DNA of 64,000 nt from NCBI RefSeq assembly GCF_003719195.1, contig NZ_CP024996.1, forward strand, positions 1,240,001 through 1,304,000. The letters run 5' to 3'. The notes under the pieces are model-generated. The model was not told the origin of the DNA, ran no database searches, and worked only from the letters and a program-made list of their open reading frames with translations. Below are positions 35,680-53,701 of this stretch, one piece after another (the stretch's first letter is position 1; each line of letters starts with the position of its first letter). Source of the stretch: Herbaspirillum rubrisubalbicans. GTDB lineage: Bacteria > Pseudomonadota > Gammaproteobacteria > Burkholderiales > Burkholderiaceae_D. The translations under genes and the position numbers were made by a program.

Positions 35680-36525
35680 TCAGGCGTCGATGGTCTTCTG
35701 CTGTTGCTCGCCCAGGCCGTCGATGCCCAGACGCATGGTCTGGCCGGCGCGCAGGTAGACCGCTTCCGGCTTGACGCCCATGCCCACGCCCGGCGGCGTG
35801 CCGGTGGAGATGACATCGCCCGGCTGCAGGCTCATGAAGCGCGACAGGTAGGACACGATATGCGCCACGCCGAAGATCATGGTGCTGGTGTTGCCGTTCT
35901 GGTAGCGCTTGCCATCCACTTCCAGCCACATGCCCAGCTTTTGCGGATCGGCCACTTCGTCGCGGGTGACCAGCCAGGGGCCGATGGGGCCGAAGGTATC
36001 GCAGCCCTTGCCCTTGTCCCAGGTACCGCCGCGCTCGATCTGGTATTCGCGCTCGGAGACGTCGTTGACCACGCAATAGCCGGCCACGTGCGACATGGCA
36101 TCCTTCTCATCGATATAGCTGCCACCCTTGCCGATGACCACGCCCAGTTCCACTTCCCAGTCGGTCTTCTTGGAGCCGCGCGGGATCTTCACATCGTCGT
36201 TGGGACCGACCACGGCCGAGGTCCACTTGTTGAACACCACCGGCTCGGCCGGGATGGGCAGGTTGGATTCGGCGGCGTGGTCGGCGTAGTTCAGGCCGAT
36301 GCAGATGAACTTGCCGATATTGCCGACGCAGGCGCCGATGCGCGGCGCACCCTCGACGGCCGGCAGGCTGTTCAGGTCCAGCTTGCGGATCTTGTCCAGC
36401 GATGCGTCATCCAGTACGGCACCGTTGACATCCTTGATGTAGGCGGACAGATCGCGGATCTTGCCGGATTGGTCGAGGATACCGGGCTTTTCCTGCCCAA
36501 CCGGGCCGTAACGCAGTAATTTCAT
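35680..36525 (-). CDS. Fumarylacetoacetate-hydrolase-family enzyme, diketo-deoxy sugar-acid hydrolase type
   Basis: A 281-residue FAH-superfamily enzyme. The N-terminal cap starts MKLLRYGPVGQEKPGILDQ. The metal-binding core holds FICIGLNYADHAAESN, DWEVELGVVIGKGG (two acidic ligands), VVNDVSEREYQ and GDVISTGTPPGVGMG. The family splits 1,3-diketo acids using Mg or Mn. With the SDR downstream it resembles the 2,4-diketo-3-deoxy-L-fuconate (or rhamnonate) hydrolase that yields pyruvate and lactate. Upstream is a FadR-type operator. Confidence 0.82.
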   Translation of the reverse strand: MKLLRYGPVGQEKPGILDQSGKIRDLSAYIKDVNGAVLDDASLDKIRKLDLNSLPAVEGAPRIGACVGNIGKFICIGLNYADHAAESNLPIPAEPVVFNKWTSAVVGPNDDVKIPRGSKKTDWEVELGVVIGKGGSYIDEKDAMSHVAGYCVVNDVSEREYQIERGGTWDKGKGCDTFGPIGPWLVTRDEVADPQKLGMWLEVDGKRYQNGNTSTMIFGVAHIVSYLSRFMSLQPGDVISTGTPPGVGMGVKPEAVYLRAGQTMRLGIDGLGEQQQKTIDA

Positions 36526-36603
36526 CGTGTTTCCTTTGAGGAAGAGTTGTCTCGGGAACGGCGCAGGGGCGCCTGTCGTTGGGGAAATGGGATATTACCA
36601 GTT

Positions 36604-36620
36604 TATTGGTAAGACCAATA
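36604..36620. promoter_or_regulatory. GntR/FadR-type operator before the FAH gene
   Basis: TATTGGT-AAG-ACCAATA is a perfect 7-base palindrome with a 3-base centre, the form bound by FadR-subfamily GntR regulators (TTGGTnnnACCAA). It lies about 80 bases upstream of the FAH gene start. The regulator gene is not in the window. Confidence 0.65.
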
Positions 36621-36901
36621 GGGTGTGCCGCGTGCGAGGTGGCGGTCAGTGCGCGTGTGCTTGATGTCCTTTTTAATTCGTTTTGAAAGTTTGTAATTCA
36701 ATTTGAAAAAGTAGAGCGATAAATCAACTGCTTATGAAGCTTTGCCAAACTCATTTTGAAAAGTGAAATTTCAGCGTGTGATCGCTTCATTTTCCGTCTG
36801 CGACATGTAATTTCATCTAAATTTGATACATAAGAGGTTGATTGTGTAACGAGAGTCGCTTAATCTGAGACATCTTAAGTATTTAATAGAACAGTTTGAT
36901 C

Positions 36902-38080
36902 ATGGAGTTCATGTCTGAGGTGCTCAAGATAATTGAGGGAGCACTCAAAGCTAACGGTAGTTTGGCGGCGAACTATGCGGGTTTGCTCGCCGATAAGCTG
37001 GCATCGGCAGGAGAATTTCATCAAGCTCGTTTGATACGCGATCAGCTAGCTCGGGCGCCGAAAGCACTGGCCTTTGCGCAAGATGCATCTAAAGGTGTGA
37101 GCTTGGGACACGTGCCGGTAGACGGCGATAGCCGTCTAAATACCGTCGATGTGAGTCTTCCTAGCCTTGATGGGCTTTCACTTTTTCTTCCAAGCGCTAT
37201 TCAGTTCCGAGTTGATGAGTTCTTGGAAAGTATTCGGCATCACGATATTTTGGCTAGGGCAGGTGCAGCGTTACCTGCACGACTGCTAGTGTATGGCGCG
37301 CCAGGAACAGGTAAGACAATGATGGCGCGTTGGATTGCCGCTCACCTTAACTATCCTCTTCTAACGGTGCGCTGCGATACGCTCGTGAGCAGCATGTTAG
37401 GGCAGACGAGCCGGAATTTGAGGCGTGTTTTTGACTATGCTCAACAGGCCCCTTCAGTTCTTTTCTTGGATGAATTTGATGCATTGGCTTCAGCTCGTGG
37501 CAATGAACGAGATGTAGGAGAGTTGCAGCGAGTTGTGATTGCTTTGCTTCAAAATATGGACGCGCTGCCAGATAGCGCTATTCTCGTAGCAGCGACCAAT
37601 CACGAGCAATTACTTGATCCTGCAATTTGGAGAAGATTCAGCTTCCGTATTCCAATGCCCCTCCCAGATGGCGAGCTGCGCTTGAGACTTTGGAAGGAAA
37701 TGCTTGGGATCTATGCGCCCAAGAGAACTAACTGGGGAGAATTGACTGAACTTTCTAACGGATCGACTGGGGCGGTAATTCAACAAGTTTGTTTAGATGC
37801 AAAGAGAAGCGCGATTCTGCAGGGCGAAAAGGTAATTGAGGCACCAGCTTTATTCCGTCGTTTGGGACTGATGATGCGCTTGTCTGAAGGGAAGCAATTT
37901 TCAAATCAGGACGAGGAGATTCGTTGGCTTCGAGAGTGGATGCCTAAGCGATTTTCCTTGCGAGTTCTGGCGAAGTTGTATGGGACAACTGTGCGCCAAA
38001 TTATGACTATAACAGGGGAGATTTCGGAGGATGGCGACGAAGAAGGGCGGGGCTCAAGCAACTCACAGTTGGCAAGTTAA
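36902..38080 (+). CDS. AAA+ ATPase of an ATPase/subtilase pair
   Basis: A 392-residue protein. A helical N-terminus of about 85 residues precedes an AAA+ core: Walker A LLVYGAPGTGKTMMARWIA (about 128-146), Walker B SVLFLDEFDALASARG (about 186-201), sensor 1 ILVAATNHEQLLDPAIWRRFSFRIP with the arginine finger. The C-terminus (LREWMPKRFSLRVLAKLYGTTVRQIMTI) looks like a helix-turn-helix. It overlaps the protease gene by 50 bases, so the two are co-expressed. Such pairs are found in bacterial accessory islands and are predicted conflict or defence modules; mechanism unknown. The start could also be ATG 36911, which has GGAG in front. Confidence 0.85.
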   Translation: MEFMSEVLKIIEGALKANGSLAANYAGLLADKLASAGEFHQARLIRDQLARAPKALAFAQDASKGVSLGHVPVDGDSRLNTVDVSLPSLDGLSLFLPSAIQFRVDEFLESIRHHDILARAGAALPARLLVYGAPGTGKTMMARWIAAHLNYPLLTVRCDTLVSSMLGQTSRNLRRVFDYAQQAPSVLFLDEFDALASARGNERDVGELQRVVIALLQNMDALPDSAILVAATNHEQLLDPAIWRRFSFRIPMPLPDGELRLRLWKEMLGIYAPKRTNWGELTELSNGSTGAVIQQVCLDAKRSAILQGEKVIEAPALFRRLGLMMRLSEGKQFSNQDEEIRWLREWMPKRFSLRVLAKLYGTTVRQIMTITGEISEDGDEEGRGSSNSQLAS

Positions 38081-40316
38081 ATTTTCTAAAGCGCAAAATC
38101 CATTTCAGCATATTCCCTTTGTAGCAGGGGACTTAAGCGGTTACAAAGCAGGTGGTGGCAGCAGCAAGATTTTCGTCGAGATCGATACGGTGTACCGAGA
38201 GAACCTCATAAGTTCTCTGGGTGCCGCTCGTCGATCCTCTTCTGGAGATGGACATAGATATCCGAATTTGCTGACAAATTTGGTATTCAAGCTTCGGAGC
38301 GAAGCGATTGCAATGACTCATCGACCGCTCACTTTGGTCAAGGAGTCTGGACTCATTTCTGCTGGCCACGCAGAGCTGGACGAGATGATTGTCGGGGAGA
38401 TTCCGAGTAGTCAGTTACTGGATCGCATCATTCGAACAAGAAATACGAGGCAGATTAAAGCAAATTTGAGTGCGATTCTACGGATTGAGCCGTGGACTAG
38501 GGAGCGGCGAAATCCCGAAGGCTCGCAATTACTGCGAGACAGGGGGACTGCTCTTGTACGGATATTCCGATACTTTTCTGATGTGGCAACCCAAAATAAC
38601 CTTCAGAGTGTCCAAAACGCTCTTCAGTTTGTGGGCGCTGAATTTCAAATTATTGCTCAGCGTCGCTCGCTGCCGCTACTGCATCTAATGAACCTCGATT
38701 CGCTTAGTGATGAGAAATTGGATTTCATTCTGGATCATCCTGGAATCCGAACGGTTTTTGCTGAGCCTATGTATTTTGCTCCAGCACAAGCTTTCAACCC
38801 GATTGAGCGTAGTTCTAAATTTTCCTTCCCATCTCCGGTAGCCCCTATACCAACCGTCGGCGTATTTGACTCAGGTTGTGATGCCGGCGAAATGATATCT
38901 CCATGGATTGATGGGCGAGACGTATTTATTCTTCCGCCCGAAACTGATCATGTACATGGAACGGCGGTCTGCTCCTTAGTCGCTGGAGCGAGAGCGCTAA
39001 ATGATGATCACGAGTGGTTCCCCGCAACCGGTTGCAAAGTTCATGACGTGGCCGCTCTTGAGAGCGGCGGTAGCAGCTTTTCGCATTTGGAGTTCCGACT
39101 TCGTTCGGCACTTGAAAGTAGGCCAGATATACGAGTCTGGAATTTGTCTCTAGGGGCACCTATGCCGTGTGGCGAGCAATTCAGCGCCTTCGGGCAAAAG
39201 TTGGATGACCTGAGTGATGAGCACAATGTGCTTTTCGTGGTGGCCGCAGGGAACTACGTCCAGACGCCACGCAGAGGATGGCCTGATGGAGCGATTCTGC
39301 ACGATCAGGTTAGCGAGCCAGCAGATTCTATGAGGGCACTGACCGTAGGAGCAATGACCCATATTGGGTCAGAACTGACGCTGGTGAAAGAAGGTTCGCC
39401 TGCGCCATATTCGCGACGCGGGCCTGGCCCAGTTTTTACGCCTAAGCCAGATGTTGTCCATCTTGGAGGCGGTGTTCATGCACCTTGGGAGGCAGGTGTC
39501 GCGAGCACGAAAGTAATTTTCCCTGGTGACCAGCTCGGCACGTCCTTTGGAACAAGTTTTGCTGCTCCGATCGTTGCCGGCATGGCCGCTCATGTATGGA
39601 AATCATTGGAGGGGCACAAGCAATTAGAGCCAAGTCCGTCAATGGTTAAAGCCTTAATAATTCACGCTGCTCAACTTTCAAGTCCAGCATATACGCCTTA
39701 TGAACGCCGGTATTTTGGAGCAGGGCTGCCTCAGGACGTGATGTCAGCACTTTATGACCGAGATGATAGCTTTACTCTAATTTTTGAAGCGCAGGTAATT
39801 CAAGGCGCTTTTCGCTGGCGGAAGGCTCCTTATCCAATACCAGATTGTTTGATGAAGGACGGAAAATTCTCTGGGGAGGTCATCATCACAGCCGCATATG
39901 CACCGCCGCTCATGCCGGATGCAGGCTCTGAATATGTTCGGGCGAATGTCGATATTAGTTTCGGCGTTCTCAATGGCGACAATATTCAAGGGAAGGTGCC
40001 GATGCAAAAGGAGCCAGGCGCAGATACGGTGGAGAAGGCGCAGATCAAGCATGGAGGAAAATGGGCTCCTGTTAAAGTTCATCGGAAGAGTTTTCCAGAA
40101 GGGGTTTCTGGAAGAAATTGGGCTTTACAGGCTGAGTGTTCGTTGAGGGCTTTTGAGACTCCACTTGCAGCGCCCATTAATGTGGTAATTGCGGTCACTT
40201 TACGGTCTCTAGATGGAGACAATACAGTGCATGCAAGGGGAATAAGTGCCCTCAATGCATCCAACTGGATATCGCATCAGTTGCCCATTACCGTTCCGGT
40301 TATTGTTGGAACTTAG
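38031..40316 (+). CDS. S8 subtilisin-like protease of the ATPase/subtilase pair
   Basis: A 761-residue protein with no signal peptide, so probably cytoplasmic. About 270 N-terminal residues have no known domain. The S8 core is intact: Asp in VGVFDSGCD (about 282), His in HVHGTAVCSLVAG (about 308), oxyanion Asn in VLFVVAAGN (about 404), Ser in GTSFGTSFAAPIVAGMA (about 515). About 200 C-terminal residues form a beta-rich region of unknown role. It starts inside the ATPase gene at ATG 38031 with GGAGG directly upstream. An ATPase partner suggests that ATP-driven sensing or unfolding controls the proteolysis. Confidence 0.87.
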   Translation: MATKKGGAQATHSWQVKFSKAQNPFQHIPFVAGDLSGYKAGGGSSKIFVEIDTVYRENLISSLGAARRSSSGDGHRYPNLLTNLVFKLRSEAIAMTHRPLTLVKESGLISAGHAELDEMIVGEIPSSQLLDRIIRTRNTRQIKANLSAILRIEPWTRERRNPEGSQLLRDRGTALVRIFRYFSDVATQNNLQSVQNALQFVGAEFQIIAQRRSLPLLHLMNLDSLSDEKLDFILDHPGIRTVFAEPMYFAPAQAFNPIERSSKFSFPSPVAPIPTVGVFDSGCDAGEMISPWIDGRDVFILPPETDHVHGTAVCSLVAGARALNDDHEWFPATGCKVHDVAALESGGSSFSHLEFRLRSALESRPDIRVWNLSLGAPMPCGEQFSAFGQKLDDLSDEHNVLFVVAAGNYVQTPRRGWPDGAILHDQVSEPADSMRALTVGAMTHIGSELTLVKEGSPAPYSRRGPGPVFTPKPDVVHLGGGVHAPWEAGVASTKVIFPGDQLGTSFGTSFAAPIVAGMAAHVWKSLEGHKQLEPSPSMVKALIIHAAQLSSPAYTPYERRYFGAGLPQDVMSALYDRDDSFTLIFEAQVIQGAFRWRKAPYPIPDCLMKDGKFSGEVIITAAYAPPLMPDAGSEYVRANVDISFGVLNGDNIQGKVPMQKEPGADTVEKAQIKHGGKWAPVKVHRKSFPEGVSGRNWALQAECSLRAFETPLAAPINVVIAVTLRSLDGDNTVHARGISALNASNWISHQLPITVPVIVGT

Positions 40317-40356: not shown

Positions 40357-40548
40357 ATGGAAATCATCAGTAGTCAAAAAATATGGACGTTCACGGGCAT
40401 ATCAAAGGACATCAAGTCGATGATATCTGGCGCCATCCGTAAGGAGCCCGCGTATCTGGTCCGCTCCTACATGGAACTTGCTACGAAAGTAGCGGAGCTT
40501 CAGTTCCGGAATCGTGATACAGCAACGACTATGGAGCGGTCACGGTAG
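40357..40548 (+). pseudogene. Truncated start of an FRG-domain-like gene
   Basis: A 63-codon frame with an excellent ribosome site (GGGAGGGCG then ATG), 40 bases after the protease gene. Its sequence, ending SYMELATKVAELQFRNRD, looks like the lead-in to the FRG motif (usually ...NRD followed by V-L-x-F/Y-R-G-Q). After NRD, at about 40519, the likeness stops and the frame ends nine codons on. I read it as the 5' end of a third gene of the ATPase/protease unit, cut off by a rearrangement. The FRG assignment is from memory of the family and moderate. Confidence 0.45.
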
Positions 40549-41015: not shown

Positions 41016-41939
41016 TTAGAACGGGCGAGGTCCGAGCGGAGGCAAAGGAATCGAAACATCGTGCAATTCCCGAACCAGACTCATGAAGTTGTGCTGTTGA
41101 TCAGGGCCATCGGAGAGATCGACATACAACCGCCCTGCCAATTCATCCGGCAGCCGGCGAGGATAGCCTGTCTGCCGGATCACTGGAACAAACTTTGCCG
41201 TACCGACTTCTCTCATTATTTGAGCAGTCACCAGCATCTGCTCATATCCCACTCCACCTTGTCGCTGCTGGGCTTTTTCCACGTATGCCTCGGTACAGAT
41301 CATCAGCACCCGGTCGCTCTCCCTTACGCTTCGCGCCATGAAGTGGCCCAAATCCTCTCCCATACGGGTATTCCATTGATCCAGGATCACTTCGATGCCG
41401 TTTGCGCGCAATGACATGGCGAGCTGAGTTACCCATGTACGGTGCTCTGTTGAATCCCATGAATACGAAATGAAAACCTGTGGCGGCCGCTGCAAAGGCT
41501 GTAGTGCACTGCTTGGAAGCAAACCGGCCTGATGCAGGACCCTCGCCAGGTCGATATTCTTGACGGCCCAATGGGTGCGATTCACTTCCCACCTGGGTTC
41601 GATATCCAGATCGGGCAGCAACTGGAGAAAGCTCTCATGGGAAATCGGTGCCACCGTGCCATCAAAGCTAAACGTAAAAGCGAACTCCTTTTGCCTTCGT
41701 GTGATGCCGGTGATTCGCCCGACGCGGGCCGCAGCGTGCGCATATTTTTCATAGGCGAAGAGTGTTGGTAGCGCCATGAGGGCCGTTAGAGACGCGTCGT
41801 CCAACGCCGCAAACCGCCGCTTGACATGATCATTGGTGTATTCGAACACACGGTCGTATTCCATGGTCCACGAAGTCCCAGTCCACGCGCTTTCGTTTCC
41901 CGACATCAGCAAATTGTAGAAATGATTCTGCACGCTCAT
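41016..41939 (-). CDS. SEFIR/TIR-domain protein
   Basis: A 307-residue protein. The N-terminal ~150 residues have no family I recognise. The C-terminal half is a SEFIR/TIR-like domain: PQVFISYSWDSTEHRTWVTQ (box 1), then LRANGIEVILDQWNTRMGEDL, ARSVRESDRVLMICTEAYVEKA and GGVGYEQML. Bacterial TIR and SEFIR domains act in anti-phage immunity, often as NAD-consuming enzymes or signalling modules. A catalytic Glu cannot be assigned surely here. It is alone, with its own terminator, between the ATPase/subtilase pair and the transposition module. Confidence 0.8.
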   Translation of the reverse strand: MSVQNHFYNLLMSGNESAWTGTSWTMEYDRVFEYTNDHVKRRFAALDDASLTALMALPTLFAYEKYAHAAARVGRITGITRRQKEFAFTFSFDGTVAPISHESFLQLLPDLDIEPRWEVNRTHWAVKNIDLARVLHQAGLLPSSALQPLQRPPQVFISYSWDSTEHRTWVTQLAMSLRANGIEVILDQWNTRMGEDLGHFMARSVRESDRVLMICTEAYVEKAQQRQGGVGYEQMLVTAQIMREVGTAKFVPVIRQTGYPRRLPDELAGRLYVDLSDGPDQQHNFMSLVRELHDVSIPLPPLGPRPF

Positions 41940-42581: not shown

Positions 42582-43228
42582 CGATGTAAACATGGTTCTA
42601 ACAGACGGCTTGGCATTCGGATCGCTGCCAGGCCGGCTGAGTATACTCCACCTAAATCCGGGCGATGTACTGGTTTGGTATTCGTCCAGTTCCGGACGCA
42701 TCGGCGCGTTTACCGATAGCTAATTGAACGGGAGTCTATATCAGCTTTTGTATTGTCGTTCATACCGTGCATTGCTGTGTAAAGACCTTCTTTGTATTTT
42801 TACTCAACGGGGAGTTGTGCGAAATCAAGTCTCAGCGAGATATGATCAAGTTTGCCGATGAACTCACCCCCAAATTTGCAGCAGCGGAAGAGTTTTCTCG
42901 AGATCAAGAATATCGGTTTAGGACTGTCACAAGTCTTGAAATGAGCGCGGAGCGTGTTGCCAATGCAAATGACCTTTATCAGGATTTACTTCGGCCGCGA
43001 GAGGAACAGTTTGAGAACTCGGTACGTTTTTTAATTAAAAACGTTTGCGGAGGAAACGCAACAGGGCATCAGATTTTCGAAAAATTCGGTCATCACGACG
43101 ACTTCATTGTGAAGTTCCGATTGCTCATCGCGCTAGGACTGTTGACTACCGACTGGGACAAAATCATATCGTTAGACTCTGTGTTTGAGTGGGGGCCCGG
43201 GGAATTGGCATGGGATCGGTCGCTATGA
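42582..43228 (+). pseudogene. Decayed TnsA-type transposon endonuclease
   Basis: The 3' part (frame from 42767) encodes LCEIKSQRDMIKFADEL, KFAAAEEFSRDQEYRFRTVT, the core-to-C-terminal passage of TnsA with the E-I-K catalytic end, then a winged-helix-like tail. The expected N-terminal half is in another frame at 42582-42780: PPKSGRCTGLVFVQF, then RRVYR-stop-LIERES, which looks like the ESLLERDF motif with its catalytic Glu. A TAG at 42717-42719, a frameshift near 42767 and loss of the Asp-bearing strand imply the enzyme is dead. Its stop overlaps the tnsB start as ATGA, so the operon layout is retained. Confidence 0.6.
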
Positions 43229-45192
43229 CTACCGCGAACAACACGTCCAAAGTATTACGCCTTGTCGAAGGTGCGATGGTTGGGCATGAGGGAGGCGCTT
43301 GGGTAATTGTAAAGATCAATGATCTTGAGAAGGTAACCATCCGTCGAGTTGATGGTTTCGACCAGGATGCCAAATTAGTCAGCGTGGCTAGCCTTGATGT
43401 CTATTTCCCTCCTGGGGGGAAAGAGCTTGTCGAGCCTGATGTACTACTCACAGAAGTTTCCAATGATGACTGGGAGGAAGCCAAGCGTCGATTCGACTTA
43501 TTGCAGCCGTTACTTCAACACGTCCCCAATCGTACTGCGGCGGTAAAAGCGATGGCTTCTCAAGCGGGTGTGAGTGTGGCGACGATATATAACTGGCATA
43601 AACGCTGGCTGCATTCGGAGAAGCTATCGTCGCTTTTGCCTACGAAACGACTGGGTGGAAAAGGAAAAGGTCGTCTTCCAGAGAGCGTGGAAGCACTTAT
43701 CGAAGAAGCGATCAGTGGGATTGCAGAATATCCTTCTCAACCCACGATTACTAGTGCCTATGAAAGCCTAATGGTTTCGTGCAAACAGGCAGGGGTAAGT
43801 GTACCAAACATGCTTACTTTTAAGTTACGCATCCGCTGGCGTGATCAAGTCTCTTACCTGAAGAATCGGATGGGGGCGAAATACGCCCAGGAGAAATTTG
43901 ACCCAGTTAAAGAAAACACCATCAGAGCAGACTATCCGTGGCACATGGTTCAGATTGACCACGCCATCCTTGATGTCATTGTCGTTCATGAGAAAACGCA
44001 TCAACCAATTTGCCGGCCTTTGTTGACTATAGCTATTGATGTCAATACTCGCGTTGTTGTGGGCATATATATCAGTCTTGAGCACCCGTCTGCAACGTCA
44101 GTAGGGGCGTGCTTGGCACATACGATTTTACCCAAAGAGCCTTATATCAAACAGTTAGAGCTCGACACTCTGGTTACTTGGCCAGTGTGGGGAGTGATGC
44201 GCACCCTCCATATGGACAACGGTAAAGATTTTCGGGGTGAGCGGCTAATGCCATCGTTCGTGCAATATCTTATCGAACGCCATTTTAGGCCAGGCAGAAC
44301 ACCGCGATATGGAGCATATATTGAACGGCTCATCGGGACCTTCTCGCGACGTATGAAGGTCGTGCCCGGCGCAACTGCTGGCAAGATTCCAGACAATCCG
44401 GATTACAAGCCGGAGGAAAAAGCGAGACTCACTGTTTCGCAAATCGAAAAGTGGTTCGTGCTCGAGGTATTCAAATATCACCGTACGCCCCATAGAGGCT
44501 TGAATGATCAAAAGCCGATCGAGGTTTATCAACAAGCGTTCCTTAAACCTGGTAAAGGATTACCAAGAGCCCTTCCACCACGCAGAACTGACATCGAAGA
44601 CGTAAAGCGAGATTTTCTGCCCGAAGAGGAGCGAGCAATTACGACGGAAGGCGTTCAGATCAAAGCCCGAAAGTACTGGGACCCTGTGCTGCAAGCTTTT
44701 CTTCATTACCAGCGCCCTGACGAAAATGTGCGAACTACCAAATTCAAATTCAAGGTCGACGATCGTGACGTCAGTTTTATTTGGTTCTTTGACGAGATTC
44801 GTAGCAAGTGGGTAAAGATTCCATCGGCGGCTGTCAATGCGGTCGACGTCAGTCGCTCAGAATGGCGGAAAACTAAGAAAAAACTGAAAGAGGACGGGGC
44901 GTTAGATCCAAGCGACCAGGAAATTTATAGTGCTGTTCTGATGCAGCGGAAAATTACGGAAGAGCACATTGAGGAGGTCGCTCATTCCCAGGTGCGTACT
45001 TCTCGCGGACGGCTCAAAAAACCAGCTGTCCCGAAGGCTGAGGCCAAAGACGATCAAAAGCGCCGCGAGCGGAAAGCCCGCAATGACGCGCAAGATAACG
45101 CGAACCCAGAGCAGCCAGTGACTTCTTCATCTCCTCCTAGTCAGGGGCGTCCATCATTGGATGATCTTCCTAATTTGGATGGAGACTTCTGA
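43225..45192 (+). CDS. tnsB: TnsB/TniA-type DDE transposase
   Basis: A 655-residue rve-superfamily transposase with a C-terminal Mu-type beta-barrel. An N-terminal helix-turn-helix (AAVKAMASQAGVSVATIYNWHKRW) precedes the catalytic core: Asp in WHMVQIDHAILD, Asp in LHMDNGKDF and Glu in YGAYIERLIGTF. The C-terminus is a long basic, low-complexity tail used by TnsB to contact TnsC. The start is ATG at 43225, overlapping the tnsA remnant. It joins the 3' transposon ends to target DNA. Confidence 0.92.
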   Translation: MTTANNTSKVLRLVEGAMVGHEGGAWVIVKINDLEKVTIRRVDGFDQDAKLVSVASLDVYFPPGGKELVEPDVLLTEVSNDDWEEAKRRFDLLQPLLQHVPNRTAAVKAMASQAGVSVATIYNWHKRWLHSEKLSSLLPTKRLGGKGKGRLPESVEALIEEAISGIAEYPSQPTITSAYESLMVSCKQAGVSVPNMLTFKLRIRWRDQVSYLKNRMGAKYAQEKFDPVKENTIRADYPWHMVQIDHAILDVIVVHEKTHQPICRPLLTIAIDVNTRVVVGIYISLEHPSATSVGACLAHTILPKEPYIKQLELDTLVTWPVWGVMRTLHMDNGKDFRGERLMPSFVQYLIERHFRPGRTPRYGAYIERLIGTFSRRMKVVPGATAGKIPDNPDYKPEEKARLTVSQIEKWFVLEVFKYHRTPHRGLNDQKPIEVYQQAFLKPGKGLPRALPPRRTDIEDVKRDFLPEEERAITTEGVQIKARKYWDPVLQAFLHYQRPDENVRTTKFKFKVDDRDVSFIWFFDEIRSKWVKIPSAAVNAVDVSRSEWRKTKKKLKEDGALDPSDQEIYSAVLMQRKITEEHIEEVAHSQVRTSRGRLKKPAVPKAEAKDDQKRRERKARNDAQDNANPEQPVTSSSPPSQGRPSLDDLPNLDGDF

Positions 45193-46067
45193 TGGATATC
45201 TCACATTTGACGACTGACAAGGCACGGCAGGACGCATTACTTTCAGTTCCAGAGCGGCGGAGAATTATTCTGGCCGATAAATGGTTCAACTACGATGGGG
45301 CTAGGGAATTGATGGCGCACATGGAGTGGTTGTACGAGCATCCGACTGTGGACCGCCCTCCCAATATGTTGCTTACCGGGGATAGTAATTCTGGCAAGAG
45401 TGCCCTCCTAAAACGTTTAATGAGCAAATACCCATCCAGATACGATCCGAACGATTCTGCGGATTATGTGCCGATACTGAGAATTGATATGCCGACCTCA
45501 TGTCCGCCGGTGAAGCTTTTTTTGGCAGAGTTCATTTCGGCGCTACGTCTGCCATTGCTGTCGAATGCTACGGCAGTAACCATGAAGGCGCAGATGGATC
45601 GAGTACTGCCGAAATTGGGTACTAAGATAATCATAATTGACGAATTTCAGACCATTCTGAATGGATCGCCGAAAGCGGCAATCAACATCCGTGATGAGTT
45701 GACGTTGTTAAGCAATCGATACAGGCTTCCAATTATCTTGACTGGCATGGATTCCGCTCGCACCGTGATGCGGGGTGATCCGCAACTAGATAACAGGTTC
45801 GAGAAGTTTCAAATCAAACGCATAACCGATCAAAAGACTGCCGGTGCGATAGTGAAGAAATGGCTGGGAGAGTGTCCACTTCAAAAGCGATCAACGATTG
45901 ATTTCTGGTTGTTGACTGATCATGTGATCCGAAATTCTGGAGGTTTAATTGGCCATATGATGGCCTTCCTCCAGAGGGCGTCTGAGTTTGCGATTGATAG
46001 CGGAGAGGAATCTTTCACAGAGAATACGCTTCGGAAGATGCGGTGGAGTATGCCCAAGTCAATTTGA
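45192..46067 (+). CDS. tnsC: TnsC/TniB-type AAA+ ATPase
   Basis: A 291-residue AAA+ regulator. Walker A is MLLTGDSNSGKSALLKRLM (about 59-77), Walker B KIIIIDEFQTIL (about 145-156), and ILTGMDSARTVMRGDPQLDNRFE the sensor/arginine region. The short length is that of TniB rather than the long TnsC of classical Tn7. It starts on the tnsB stop (ATGA). In this family it forms filaments on target DNA and activates TnsB. Confidence 0.92.
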   Translation: MDISHLTTDKARQDALLSVPERRRIILADKWFNYDGARELMAHMEWLYEHPTVDRPPNMLLTGDSNSGKSALLKRLMSKYPSRYDPNDSADYVPILRIDMPTSCPPVKLFLAEFISALRLPLLSNATAVTMKAQMDRVLPKLGTKIIIIDEFQTILNGSPKAAINIRDELTLLSNRYRLPIILTGMDSARTVMRGDPQLDNRFEKFQIKRITDQKTAGAIVKKWLGECPLQKRSTIDFWLLTDHVIRNSGGLIGHMMAFLQRASEFAIDSGEESFTENTLRKMRWSMPKSI

Positions 46068-46965
46068 TGAACGGGAGAAGTCGATCTGGCCGATTAGACA
46101 GATACTTCAGGAAGATGAGCTTCTGTCGACGTGGTTGGCTCGTTCGGCTTATCACTTGCAGGTCCCGGTTCGGTCGTTAGTGGATATGAATATTCGTGGT
46201 CGGCCAAACAGTCGTTGGTATAACGACATAGACGTCTGCATCGATAGCGAAGTTGCCTTCCATCTGAGCGAACAATCTGGTGTGCCAATTCAAAGAATTA
46301 TTAGAGCATCGCTTCTTCGATATGAAGGAACAGCTCTTGAGATGGCGCCTAGGTCCTCTGATACTTGCTGGGTTCTAGGATCTAACTTAAGTCCGATTGG
46401 TGGGCGCATCGGTTACGCCATATGCTCAAAATGCCTTGCTAGTGATGACGTTCCATATTTCCGCCCACATTGGCGCCTAGCGACGACTTGTACTTGTGAG
46501 AGGCACGGGACATTACTTCGTGATCGTTGCGCGGAATGTGGTGCCTTTATTTTTCCGTGGAGAGGTAAGCAGGTCTCCACTGATCCACTTGATTACTGCA
46601 CCTGTTATAAGTGTGGTGCAGATATTATCCATCAAGTCGACGGGACAATCCCCGCTGATTGCTACACGAAGGGCGTAGCCTTATTTTCGCAAATAACTAG
46701 GCAGCTAGATCACGGCATAATCAGGCTTCCTTGTGGTAGCTCCGATCAGTACTTAATTTTAGTTTTGCGCGGCATCCATAGCTTGGTTCAGTCTTTAGCC
46801 ATGTTAAGAGGCGAAAATTCGCTCATGCGGTCGCTGGATCGGGTGTGCAATTATCAATTCGGCTTTTTGGATTGGGGCACGCTAGGGAGAAGATTATCGA
46901 GAGTAGCGCCTGGAACGGTAGCAAGTTTCTCGCTGCAGTATGGCGTTAGATACTCTGCAAACTGA
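45988..46965 (+). CDS. tniQ: TniQ/TnsD-family target-site protein
   Basis: TniQ homology starts at WPIRQILQEDELLSTWLARSAYHL (about 46081 onward). Zinc-finger motifs follow: ICSKCLASDDVPYFRPHWRL, CERHGTLLRDRCAECG and CTCYKCGADI. TniQ proteins choose the insertion site and hand it to TnsC. No in-frame ATG or GTG lies near the expected start; the frame opens at a TTG at 45988, 80 bases inside tnsC. Either a rare start, or a small frameshift at the tnsC end (an ATG at 46067-46069 is in another frame), is possible. At 325 residues or fewer it is a short TniQ, not full TnsD. Confidence 0.85.
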   Translation: MRLIAERNLSQRIRFGRCGGVCPSQFDEREKSIWPIRQILQEDELLSTWLARSAYHLQVPVRSLVDMNIRGRPNSRWYNDIDVCIDSEVAFHLSEQSGVPIQRIIRASLLRYEGTALEMAPRSSDTCWVLGSNLSPIGGRIGYAICSKCLASDDVPYFRPHWRLATTCTCERHGTLLRDRCAECGAFIFPWRGKQVSTDPLDYCTCYKCGADIIHQVDGTIPADCYTKGVALFSQITRQLDHGIIRLPCGSSDQYLILVLRGIHSLVQSLAMLRGENSLMRSLDRVCNYQFGFLDWGTLGRRLSRVAPGTVASFSLQYGVRYSAN

Positions 46966-47144: not shown

Positions 47145-47462
47145 GATTTTGCCAACGACTGGACGGACAACGCCGCCGAACGCTCTGAAGGCGGCTCTCT
47201 TTGAGCGGTTTGAAGAAATGTAACAGAGGATATTTTAGATTTTCTTCGCTGGAAACCAACACGAACGTTGCCATCGCCCGCTAAAGCTGAACCATCATCC
47301 ATCTCCCTGAAATAGAAGCTATCAATTTAGCCCTAATTAGCACTTTGACGTGGCGAAAAATGTTTCGGAAAATGAAAACATCCGCGCACTGCCGCCCCTC
47401 CAGCTCAAATTCAAATTGAGTTTGCGAGCAGTGGATGAGTTGCGCCCGAGTAAATCATTGGG
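46966..47462. other. Region after tniQ, probable transposon interior or end
   Basis: Apart from the doubtful minus-strand frame at 46854-47144 no gene is seen. I searched for a terminal repeat matching the sequence before the tnsA remnant (42300-42580) and found none by eye. Confidence 0.35.
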
Positions 47463-47782: not shown

Positions 47783-48079
47783 ATGAAATTTCAAGTCGGA
47801 CCAGTTTTTCAGGTCAATATCTCAATCCGGGAAATCGCCCGCCGCCTGGACATCTCCCGCAATACGATTCGCCGTTATATTCGGTCAGACGCGATCGAAC
47901 CAGCATACCCAGCAAGGCATTCGCCTAGTTCTCTTGATGAGTTTTCTCCCAGGCTCTCCGCTTGGATGAGCGCTGAATCCGTTAAGTTTCGCAAGCAACG
48001 AAGAACCCTGAAACAGATGTTCCTGGATCTGAGAGAACTGGGATATGAGGGGTCGTACGACCATGGCCGCCTTTGGTAG
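47783..48079 (+). pseudogene. IS21-family istA fragment
   Basis: An N-terminal piece of IstA: helix-turn-helix VNISIREIARRLDISRNTIRRYIRS, then FRKQRRTLKQMFLDLRELGYEGSYD. In intact IstA the next residues are RVAAFVRRW-like; here the same bases occur one frame off (MAAFGRRW) and the rest, including the DDE core and istB, is absent. It is a frameshifted, truncated relic. Confidence 0.75.
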
Positions 48080-48165
48080 ACGGTGGGAGGTGGGGCAAAT
48101 GGAGATGGTCAAATCCGCGAGCAAATCAACACGTTAAGTTTTGTCTCACAAAATAGGCAGAGTAT

Positions 48166-52469: not shown

Positions 52470-53318
52470 TTATGCCGACACTGCAGTATTGCTGGCGAAC
52501 CGGCTGTAGTAGTTTGCCTCAGCTTCTGCCGGAGGGATATAGCCGATGGATTCCAGCAGTCGATGATGGTTGAACCAAGCCACCCATTCGAGCGTGGCCA
52601 GTTCGACGGATTCCCTGGTTTTCCAAGGGGCACGGCGATGAATTAATTCAGCTTTGTACAGGCCATTGATGGTTTCGGCCAAGGCGTTATCGTAACTGTC
52701 GCCACGGCTTCCGACCGATGGCGCAATGCCCGCCTCGGCCAGGCGTTCACTGTAGCGAATCCCGACGTATTGCGATCCCCTGTCGGAATGATGGATCAAG
52801 CCGCCGTTGCCTTCGGGCTGGCGAGCATAGAGCGCCTGCTCCAGCGCATCTAGCACGAAGTCCGTCGTCATACTGTTGCTGACACGCCAGCCAACGATGC
52901 GACGGGCAAACACGTCGATGACGAAGGCCACATACAGCCAGCCTTGCCAGGTCGATACGTAGGTAAAGTCGGACACCCAAAGCTGGTTGGGACGATCAGC
53001 CTTGAACTGACGATTGACCCGGTCCAACGGGCAGGCTGCCTTGGGATCAGAACGCGTGGTGCGAAGTTGCTTACCACGCCGGGCTCCCTGAAGCCCTTGC
53101 TTTCGCATCAACCGCTCTACCGTACAACGTGCGATAGATACGCCCTCGCGATTCAGCTGTCGCCACACCTTGTCAGCACCGTACACACGCATGTTGGCGT
53201 GCCACACCCGGCTGATTTCAACTCGCAGTACCGCATCACGCTTGCTACGAGCACAGCACAATTGAGGATTGCGCTGCCTCGCTGCATAACGCCGATATGC
53301 TGACGGGGCAACCTGCAA
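52470..53318 (-). CDS. IS3-family transposase OrfB (DDE catalytic part)
   Basis: A 282-residue rve-fold transposase. An HTH_21 segment (HANMRVYGADKVWRQLNREG) precedes the core: Asp in LWVSDFTYVSTW, Asp in LIHHSDRGSQYVGIRYS, Glu in DNALAETINGLYKAE. The product is normally made as an OrfAB fusion by -1 frameshifting; the open frame upstream of the listed start (TYIDRYRDIHGVEPICKVL) supports this. Confidence 0.93.
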   Translation of the reverse strand: MQVAPSAYRRYAARQRNPQLCCARSKRDAVLRVEISRVWHANMRVYGADKVWRQLNREGVSIARCTVERLMRKQGLQGARRGKQLRTTRSDPKAACPLDRVNRQFKADRPNQLWVSDFTYVSTWQGWLYVAFVIDVFARRIVGWRVSNSMTTDFVLDALEQALYARQPEGNGGLIHHSDRGSQYVGIRYSERLAEAGIAPSVGSRGDSYDNALAETINGLYKAELIHRRAPWKTRESVELATLEWVAWFNHHRLLESIGYIPPAEAEANYYSRFASNTAVSA

Positions 53319-53374
53319 TACCTTGCAGATCGGCTCGACCCCGTGGATATCCCGATAGCGATCGATATAGGTAT

Positions 53375-53701
53375 TTACGACTTCAGTTTGCGGTCGAGCT
53401 CCGCCTGCGCGAAAAAAGCGCTCGCGGTCTTGAGAATCTCGTTAGCACGGCGCAATTCCTTGACCTCGCGCTCCAGTGCCTTGATACGCTCACGCTCGGC
53501 CGTGCTGACGCCATCCCGCTCGCCGCTATCGACCTCGGCGCGTTTGACCCAGTCCAGCAGCGTCTGAGGCGTACAGCCGATCATCGGCGCAATCGATTGG
53601 ACCGCAGACCACGTGGAGGAATGCTCATCCCGCTGCTCACGCACCAAGCGCACCGCACGCTCTCGTACCTCAGGGGAAAACTTGCTTGATTTCTTGTTCA
53701 T
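53375..53701 (-). CDS. IS3-family transposase OrfA
   Basis: A 108-residue protein with an N-terminal helix-turn-helix ([33 protein letters not shown]) that binds the IS ends, and a leucine-zipper-like helix ([20 protein letters not shown]). Near its end the coding strand has a T-TTT-TTC heptamer. Confidence 0.92.
53411..53417 (-). promoter_or_regulatory. Probable programmed -1 frameshift site joining OrfA and OrfB
   Basis: The coding strand reads GC-T-TTT-TTC in the OrfA frame, a slippery X-XXY-YYZ heptamer. A -1 slip here enters a stop-free frame that runs straight into OrfB, past the OrfA stop. Confidence 0.65.

Follow-up and report, generated by a model that had tools for sequence, protein, structure and literature searches.

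An IetAS-type AAA+ ATPase and subtilase pair just inside a Tn7-like transposon end in Herbaspirillum rubrisubalbicans, a putative anti-phage toxin-antitoxin module

Organisation of the gene pair

The window, by which we mean the whole 64,000-nucleotide stretch of H. rubrisubalbicans DNA analysed (NZ_CP024996.1, positions 1,240,001 to 1,304,000), encodes an AAA+ ATPase and, directly after it on the same strand, a subtilase. The pair comprises the following features.

36902..38080, + strand: ietA, classical AAA+ ATPase, 392 aa, putative antitoxin/regulator (PADLOC, NCBIfam, AF2 model)
37295..37318, + strand: IetA Walker A, residues 132-139, GAPGTGKT (alignment)
38031..40316, + strand: ietS, cytoplasmic subtilase (S8), 761 aa, putative toxin/effector (PADLOC, NCBIfam, Pfam)
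38262..38519, + strand: IetS N-terminal unit 1, residues 78-163 (conserved motif)
38535..38816, + strand: IetS N-terminal unit 2, residues ~169-262, predicted propeptide (I9)-like fold (structure model)
38868..38870, + strand: IetS catalytic Asp280 (invariant, 15/15)
38955..38957, + strand: IetS catalytic His309 (invariant, 15/15)
39555..39557, + strand: IetS catalytic Ser509 (invariant, 15/15)

Both reading frames are intact, and the 3' end of ietA overlaps the 5' end of ietS by 50 bases (38031-38080), as the first-pass annotation had described. The ietA start is placed at the ATG at 36902 on the basis that near IetA homologues open with MxHLSEVLK or similar; the alternative TTG at 36896 in the ORF list would add two residues. 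Overlaps of 29-53 bases occur in seven near homologues (L035, L037-L040, L046 and L016) and of only 4-11 bases in L018, L042, L043 and L045. The L017 overlap is 26 bases by longest ORF and absent by annotated start, and in L041 the two genes are separated by a 12-base gap. GC content is 0.489 compared with 0.62 in the left flank. A promoter scan returned a single match, below the number found in shuffled sequence.

Membership of the IetAS system

Both proteins match the PADLOC IetA (PDLC02196, 5e-140) and IetS (PDLC02197, 9.8e-277) profiles nearly end to end, and both exceed the curated NCBIfam cut-offs, with 532.8 bits against 510 for IetA (NF042959) and 982.9 bits against 900 for IetS (NF042956). 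These profiles place the pair in IetAS (IteA/IteS at NCBI), a catalogued anti-phage system, with which it shares proteins, gene order and motifs and from which no distinguishing feature was found. The possibility of a new ATPase-protease system was rejected on the curated cut-offs, and none is claimed here: IetAS is catalogued among defence systems, it already has a name and a toxin-antitoxin description, and this member of it is ordinary. The initial guess of a defence or conflict system was right in kind, although it missed the name and the toxin-antitoxin description.

Three related systems can be likened to the window pair by description. The founding pair, ietAS of pTiC58 (Yamamoto 2009), combines an AAA-ATPase with a serine protease and serves plasmid stability, as related in the available parts of PMC5006074 and PMC8562856. 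SgiAT (S026-S025), a tested toxin-antitoxin pair from Salmonella Genomic Island 1, which is an integrative mobilizable island, also places an AAA-ATPase antitoxin gene before a subtilase toxin gene in one operon (PMC5006074, in part). In the same account the homologous protease lowers E. coli transformation 100- to 1000-fold and the effect is gone with the ATPase in trans; as this protease is toxic alone, the ATPase is not needed for toxicity. The mycoplasma pairs are likewise working toxins and antitoxins, T133/A132 having the same gene order, a subtilase that is toxic and an ATPase that is protective in tests, and being chromosomal in mycoplasmas (PMC8562856, in part). A toxic protease restrained by an ATPase in homologues agrees with the original proposal that the ATPase controls a cytoplasmic protease. 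The anti-phage mechanism of IetAS is called unknown in the available portions of PMC11878078 and PMC9958689.

IetA resembles remodelling ATPases

The alignments hold 14 IetA and 15 IetS proteins, not all of them independent because the pairs of L042 and L045 are near-identical. The Walker A motif reads GxPGTGK in 13 of the 14 IetA proteins and GPPGCGK in the other, and the motifs LDEFD and WRRF are invariant. The AF2 model of IetA (pLDDT 82) is closest in a structure search to PAN, proteasome Rpt subunits, FtsH-like motors, Vps4 and p97. These are substrate-remodelling motors, and the likeness lends itself to a reading in which IetA is an unfoldase feeding IetS in the style of Clp or FtsH, such that the two would form an ATP-dependent machine degrading phage proteins rather than an antitoxin and a toxin. 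A pore-loop position that is hydrophobic throughout the 14 proteins is consistent with this. However, the aromatic residue expected at an AAA+ unfoldase pore loop is replaced by Leu or Met in nine of them, the window's IetA included (SSMLG), and is Phe or Tyr in five. A protease that in the tested homologue is toxic without its ATPase, and whose toxicity the ATPase relieves (PMC5006074, in part), also argues against an unfoldase, which we regard as unlikely. The helix-turn-helix-like tail noted initially is weak: the model has short helices at residues 353-360 and 364-371 followed by a disordered end, but Pfam HTH_28 matches at E=0.16, below the cut-off.

IetS is a cytoplasmic subtilase with a predicted propeptide-like fold

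IetS matches Pfam PF00082 (3.3e-29), and its Asp280, His309 and Ser509 are invariant in all 15 aligned proteins, as is Asn408. The protein begins MATKKGGAQATHSWQ, the Kyte-Doolittle mean of its most hydrophobic 19-residue segment is 1.22, and neither a signal peptide nor a membrane helix is visible from the N-terminal sequence and this profile. Two features recognised at the outset, an intact Asp-His-Ser triad and a protease free of an export signal, are thus upheld.

The N-terminal part of IetS divides into two units. Unit 1 carries the motif [AG]xA[KM][ST][HY]RP, which is AIAMTHRP in the window and AK[ST][HY]RP in 14 of 14 homologues; the window's unit 1 fragment has no Pfam match at E<=10. 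Unit 2 is modelled with the topology strand-helix-strand-strand-helix-strand. Subtilisin precursors align with the IetS model from residue ~155-173 to ~575, judged by end points only, and for 3whi, 3wiv, 2e1p and 3t41 the alignments start at 166-169 and are 326-336 residues long. Mature subtilisins, in contrast, align over only about 236-243 residues. The propeptide likeness is at fold level only, in a model built from 12 sequences: residues ~169-262 match no Pfam family, and the propeptide-like fragments of nine proteins found no Inhibitor_I9 match either at E<=10, where search filters drop most hits above 0.1, or in a PDB profile search. The structure-match list (VIA) is dominated by the S8 domain and says very little about the folds of unit 1 and of the C-terminal part. 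Residues ~169-262 of the model nevertheless suggest a propeptide-like domain that may be a built-in brake on the protease. Of the first-pass reading of the N-terminal ~270 residues, an inhibitor is supported by fold and finds no match by sequence.

The pair lies just inside a Tn7-like transposon end

The surrounding island contains the following features.

36656..36762, + strand: Tn7-like transposon end, TGTGCTTGA then three TnsB-site-like repeats at 36670, 36690 and 36743 (sequence comparison)
41016..41939, - strand: bSEFIR-like TIR/SEFIR gene, neighbouring cargo (PADLOC, Pfam)
42767..43228, + strand: possible TnsA-like endonuclease remnant (PF08722 E=0.0013, 19.6 bits, below the cut-off of 26.5)
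43189..45192, + strand: TnsB-like transposase (PADLOC TnsB 4.6e-28; Mu-transpos_C just above cut-off)
45192..46067, + strand: TniB/TnsC-like ATPase (PF05621 9.3e-44)
45988..46965, + strand: TniQ (PF06527 3.7e-18; PADLOC TniQ 1.1e-18)

The start of ietA is 246 bases inside the transposon end at 36656, which lies upstream of an FAA-hydrolase gene. At the same site, a genome of the same genus (L032) has TGTGCTTGA and three repeats with spacings of 20 and 67, followed by TnsA-like (just below cut-off), TniB and TniQ genes. Tn7-like elements seem to have inserted repeatedly in this genus at the position in front of the FAA-hydrolase gene. A literature search on this site as a Tn7-like target found nothing relevant among the records listed. 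PMC8649781 makes no mention of 'iet', 'subtil' or 'fumarylacetoacetate', and PMC10293859 none of 'fumarylacetoacetate'. The best candidate for the opposite end, at 47408, is one weak site of 13.1 bits compared with 22-24 for the sites that built the matrix. The right island boundary was not found by comparison with three same-genus stretches, which match the window only to ~36625, repeats and an IS-like stretch aside.

Of the Tn7-like module named in the first-pass annotation, TnsB, TniB and TniQ are confirmed and the upstream TnsA-like ORF is weak. The SEFIR/TIR neighbour is substantiated by PADLOC bSEFIR (7.5e-66, residues 142-306 on profile positions 28-195 of 412) and by Pfam TIR_2 and SEFIR above cut-off. 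A supposed truncated FRG-like gene, ORF 40357-40545 (62 aa), has no match in Pfam (E<=5), PADLOC (E<=1) or tblastn of plasmids (E<=0.01), and that identity finds no support. The weak, partial TnsA-like match, this matchless ORF and the split second IetS of a relative could together be taken to mean that the pair is a decayed remnant without present function, but with both frames intact and the catalytic residues kept this is highly improbable.

Homologues and their neighbourhoods

The nearest homologues compared (L016 and L017) show ~49-52% identity for IetS and 59-61% for IetA, ~61% being the most that any homologue compared reaches. Homologues ~50% identical in IetS are carried by a plasmid of Acidovorax and by an E. 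coli phage; the latter, the nearest phage-borne pair, sits between replication and antitermination/lysis genes, in a record with Rac-named genes, and also occurs among E. coli genomes (77 of 5426). Further homologues are plasmid-borne, one adjoining a Shedu gene, and two chromosomal ones lie at most ~1.3 kb from PD-Lambda-3_B genes. One relative genome (G170) carries a second IetS, which is split. A single-sequence scan of genome contigs confirmed no relative.

The first-pass annotation had proposed surveying such neighbourhoods for defence genes. Cases were 108 mechanical ORFs of at least 150 aa, other than IetAS itself, from the surroundings of 10 IetS loci, left after exclusion of L036 (split IetS), of L046 (on a contig of 4.3 kb) and of the loci on plasmids and phage; controls were 127 ORFs on 9 of 18 stretches from nine of the ten case genomes, the L045 genome being without a control and one control row of 2,202 aa being left out of the scan. 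At PADLOC E<=1e-20, defence families are seen near IetS loci, but with 27 families in 108 ORFs compared with 40 in 127 control ORFs, IetAS loci are not ahead by raw count, and enrichment was set aside as proof. Among the best 25 of the 27 case families are PD-Lambda-3 A and B, type I REase, SoFic, KwaB, LmuA, Avs1a, PD-T7-1, PD-T7-5 and PDC-S48, along with look-alikes such as Cas12f (L045), DEDDh and RTasMBL. Among the best 25 of the 40 control families, 18 are PD-T4-6 models and the rest are DinG, mad6, mad3, kinase, WYL and MkoA. That the kinds of family differ between the two sets is only a reading.

A model for restraint and release of the protease

Taken with the tested homologues, the pair is probably an IetAS anti-phage or toxin-antitoxin module in which the subtilase IetS is restrained by the AAA+ protein IetA and freed by infection or loss of the locus. 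Unrestrained in the cytoplasm, IetS would cut cell proteins, and IetA, the product of the overlapping upstream gene, would hold it in check. Infection or locus loss would upset IetA, and the IetS so freed may halt the cell or kill it ahead of phage production. Co-transcription of ietA and ietS in the host, the phage trigger and the targets of IetS are elements that we infer, as is a second brake within IetS provided by the propeptide-like fold.

The main role could instead be the stabilisation of the carrier mobile element by addiction, with phage protection secondary. The founding examples, pTiC58 ietAS and SgiAT, are described as plasmid and island stabilisers (PMC5006074 and PMC8562856, both in part), and the window pair is just inside a transposon end. 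However, the native SgiAT promoter gave no post-segregational killing in the part of PMC5006074 available, and the proteins carry an anti-phage name at NCBI and figure among the defence proteins of PADLOC. Addiction as the main role is on these grounds somewhat unlikely, although it and defence are not mutually exclusive.

A more elaborate form of the restraint model treats IetS as a toxin of zymogen type held by two brakes: a propeptide-like domain, comparable to the propeptide by which secreted subtilisins inhibit themselves, would cover the active site, and IetA would stabilise or reset this closed state. Infection that drains or blocks IetA might then lead to self-processing and activation of IetS, and the unit 1 motif may form the face that IetA or a phage product recognises. 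We advance this tentatively and consider it rather unlikely as a whole. The built-in brake cannot suffice, since in homologues the protease is toxic by itself. Subtilisin precursors such as Pro-Tk-SP are secreted enzymes and are not known to have an ATPase partner; Pro-Tk-SP (3afg) and the others share ~20% identity with IetS and have no sequence match in the propeptide-like part. A search of a viral fold library returned mostly subtilases, among them three Tupanvirus proteins named Peptidase inhibitor I9. A propeptide-like domain within a toxin would offer a concrete, testable model for protease silencing.

Identity of the gene pair

The first-pass annotation described an AAA+ ATPase and a cytoplasmic subtilase encoded as an overlapping pair, which is what the window contains:

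36902-38080, + strand: IetA (ATPase), read from the ATG at 36902
38031-40316, + strand: IetS (subtilase), overlapping IetA by 50 bases

The mechanical open reading frame of IetA starts at TTG 36896, two codons too early as judged from homologues. GC content is 48.9% in the DNA holding the pair versus about 62% in the flank to its left. PADLOC matches both proteins (IetA 5e-140, IetS 9.8e-277), and both exceed curated NCBIfam equivalog cut-offs, IetA as 'anti-phage ATPase IteA' (532.8 bits, cut-off 510) and IetS as 'S8 family anti-phage peptidase IteS' (982.9 bits, cut-off 900). Pfam finds AAA and Peptidase_S8 domains, and among the matches listed (60 of 272 in one search) sequence similarity to solved structures was confined to these S8 and AAA domains. 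By sequence, therefore, the pair is a member of an already known system; the earlier guess of a defence or conflict function had the kind right, but the PADLOC and NCBIfam matches mean that the system is already named and not new. It was reportedly the subject of an anti-phage report by Gao in 2020. Passages of PMC5006074 and PMC8562856 cite ietAS on plasmid pTiC58 (Yamamoto 2009) as the system's founding pair.

Protein anatomy and a model of control

IetS Asp280, His309, Asn408 and Ser509 are kept in all 15 aligned proteins. In IetA, LDEFD and WRRF are kept in 14 of 14 proteins and GxPGTGK in 13, the remaining one having GPPGCGK. The IetA model (11 sequences, pLDDT 82) is closest to PAN, Rpt, FtsH-like, Vps4 and p97 motors. 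The AAA+ pore-loop position is usually aromatic; here it is Leu or Met in 9/14 proteins, the window's included, and Phe or Tyr in 5/14. The C-terminal tail, previously called helix-turn-helix-like, does form two short helices in the model, but its helix-turn-helix match is sub-threshold.

The simplest model is that IetS would be a protease toxin held back by the AAA+ antitoxin IetA. Infection or loss of the locus would then free IetS, where we infer both the trigger and the targets. A second, propeptide-like brake, proposed here from structure prediction, may lie inside IetS itself (residues about 169-262). In the passages of PMC5006074 on the homologous SgiAT pair, the protease cut E. coli transformation 100- to 1000-fold in an inducer-dependent manner and acted within <30 minutes, the ATPase in trans counteracted it, and no post-segregational killing was observed from the native promoter. 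Parts of PMC8562856 describe mycoplasmas with functional ATPase/subtilase toxin-antitoxin pairs; its authors regard the E. coli and B. subtilis data overall as rather inconclusive, yet consider this particular pair confirmed in E. coli. The anti-phage mechanism of IetAS is described as unknown in passages of PMC11878078 and PMC9958689, and in the former the link between IetAS and resistance is correlative because the IetAS-carrying Pf phage yielded no lysogen. The present finding is of modest value, which comes from the predicted propeptide-like fold and from the insertion site.

Insertion site and Tn7-like end

The pair lies beside the following features:

35680-36525: FAA hydrolase gene (Pfam 9.6e-71)
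36600-36660: TATTGGTAAGACCAATA, an operator-like palindrome on the upstream side of the FAA-hydrolase gene
36656: TGTGCTTGA of the Tn7-like end
36670, 36690 and 36743: repeats of the Tn7-like end

The palindrome is kept in 11/11 other same-genus loci examined (L020-L030, the best of 33 other genomes matched), and the sequence beyond it diverges among them. In three of the 11 (L020, L021 and, as a close variant, L025) the palindrome is followed by a TGTGCTTGAG end. L032, a longer stretch of the L020 locus, has three repeats at this site with spacings of 20 and 67. Beyond them lie a TnsA-like gene, which at 26.2 bits falls just short of its 26.5-bit cut-off, and a 733-aa gene that Pfam leaves unmatched but that weakly matches the TnsB of the window. 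TniB and TniQ genes are there as well, each above its cut-off. TGTGCTTGA with its repeats in the window, and this counterpart in L032, mark a Tn7-like end at the island border. The IetA start is 246 bases inside this end, and the site upstream of the FAA-hydrolase gene is likely an insertion hotspot for Tn7-like elements. The window's tns genes (42767-46965) are distant kin of those in L032 (best 29% over 72 residues), and no convincing opposite transposon end was found for the window's element, so one intact transposon carrying the pair remains a candidate reading only.

Distribution and neighbours of relatives

Counting the window's genome each time, IetS occurs in 8/294 genomes of the family and, by the NCBI model (E<=1e-50), in 4/399 of the order and 2/398 of the phylum. 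The seven other family proteins show 29-47% identity at their best match, six aligning nearly full length. One relative genome (G170) has, besides its intact IetS, a second, broken one in two pieces about 1 kb apart. With IetS as tblastn query, 334 of 72,556 plasmid records match, just four covering at least 80% of the query, and 13 of 50,697 phage records, two with such coverage. The best plasmid match (50% identity) is on an Acidovorax plasmid and adjoins Shedu; the best phage match (49%) is E. coli phage 683R6. Among 5426 E. coli genomes, 77 have the pair of this phage, in every case on a chromosome.

Clear PD-Lambda-3 proteins account for three of ten selected neighbours from six relative loci. 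In a wider PADLOC survey (E<=1e-20), 108 open reading frames around ten IetS loci matched 27 families and 127 around nine control stretches matched 40, a raw count that does not favour the IetAS loci. In L037 (12029-13451) and L040 (11909-12727), PD-Lambda-3_B is encoded downstream of IetAS at a distance of up to about 1.3 kb, and L037 also has PD-Lambda-3_A. By Pfam, the genes upstream of IetAS in L038 (12292-14443) and L040 (3782-5908) include one of the phage-integrase family and one for a DNA-binding protein of the KfrA_N type, and in the Acidovorax plasmid locus L016 (6476-8764) genes annotated as integrase and DNA-binding protein occupy the corresponding position; these upstream genes are possibly a recurring mobile cassette.

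Other features of the window

52470-53318: transposase gene (domains rve and HTH_21)
53304-53420: ALIL pseudoknot (Rfam RF01497, 105.2 bits), at the start of the transposase gene
41016-41939: bSEFIR-like gene
47783-48132: IS-like open reading frame with a helix-turn-helix part

In the bSEFIR-like gene, the match of the SEFIR half to the PADLOC profile is limited to profile positions 28-195 of 412, and the N-terminal 140 residues are without assignment. Positions 47820-48132 recur in L033, a locus from the same genus, with about 78% identity.
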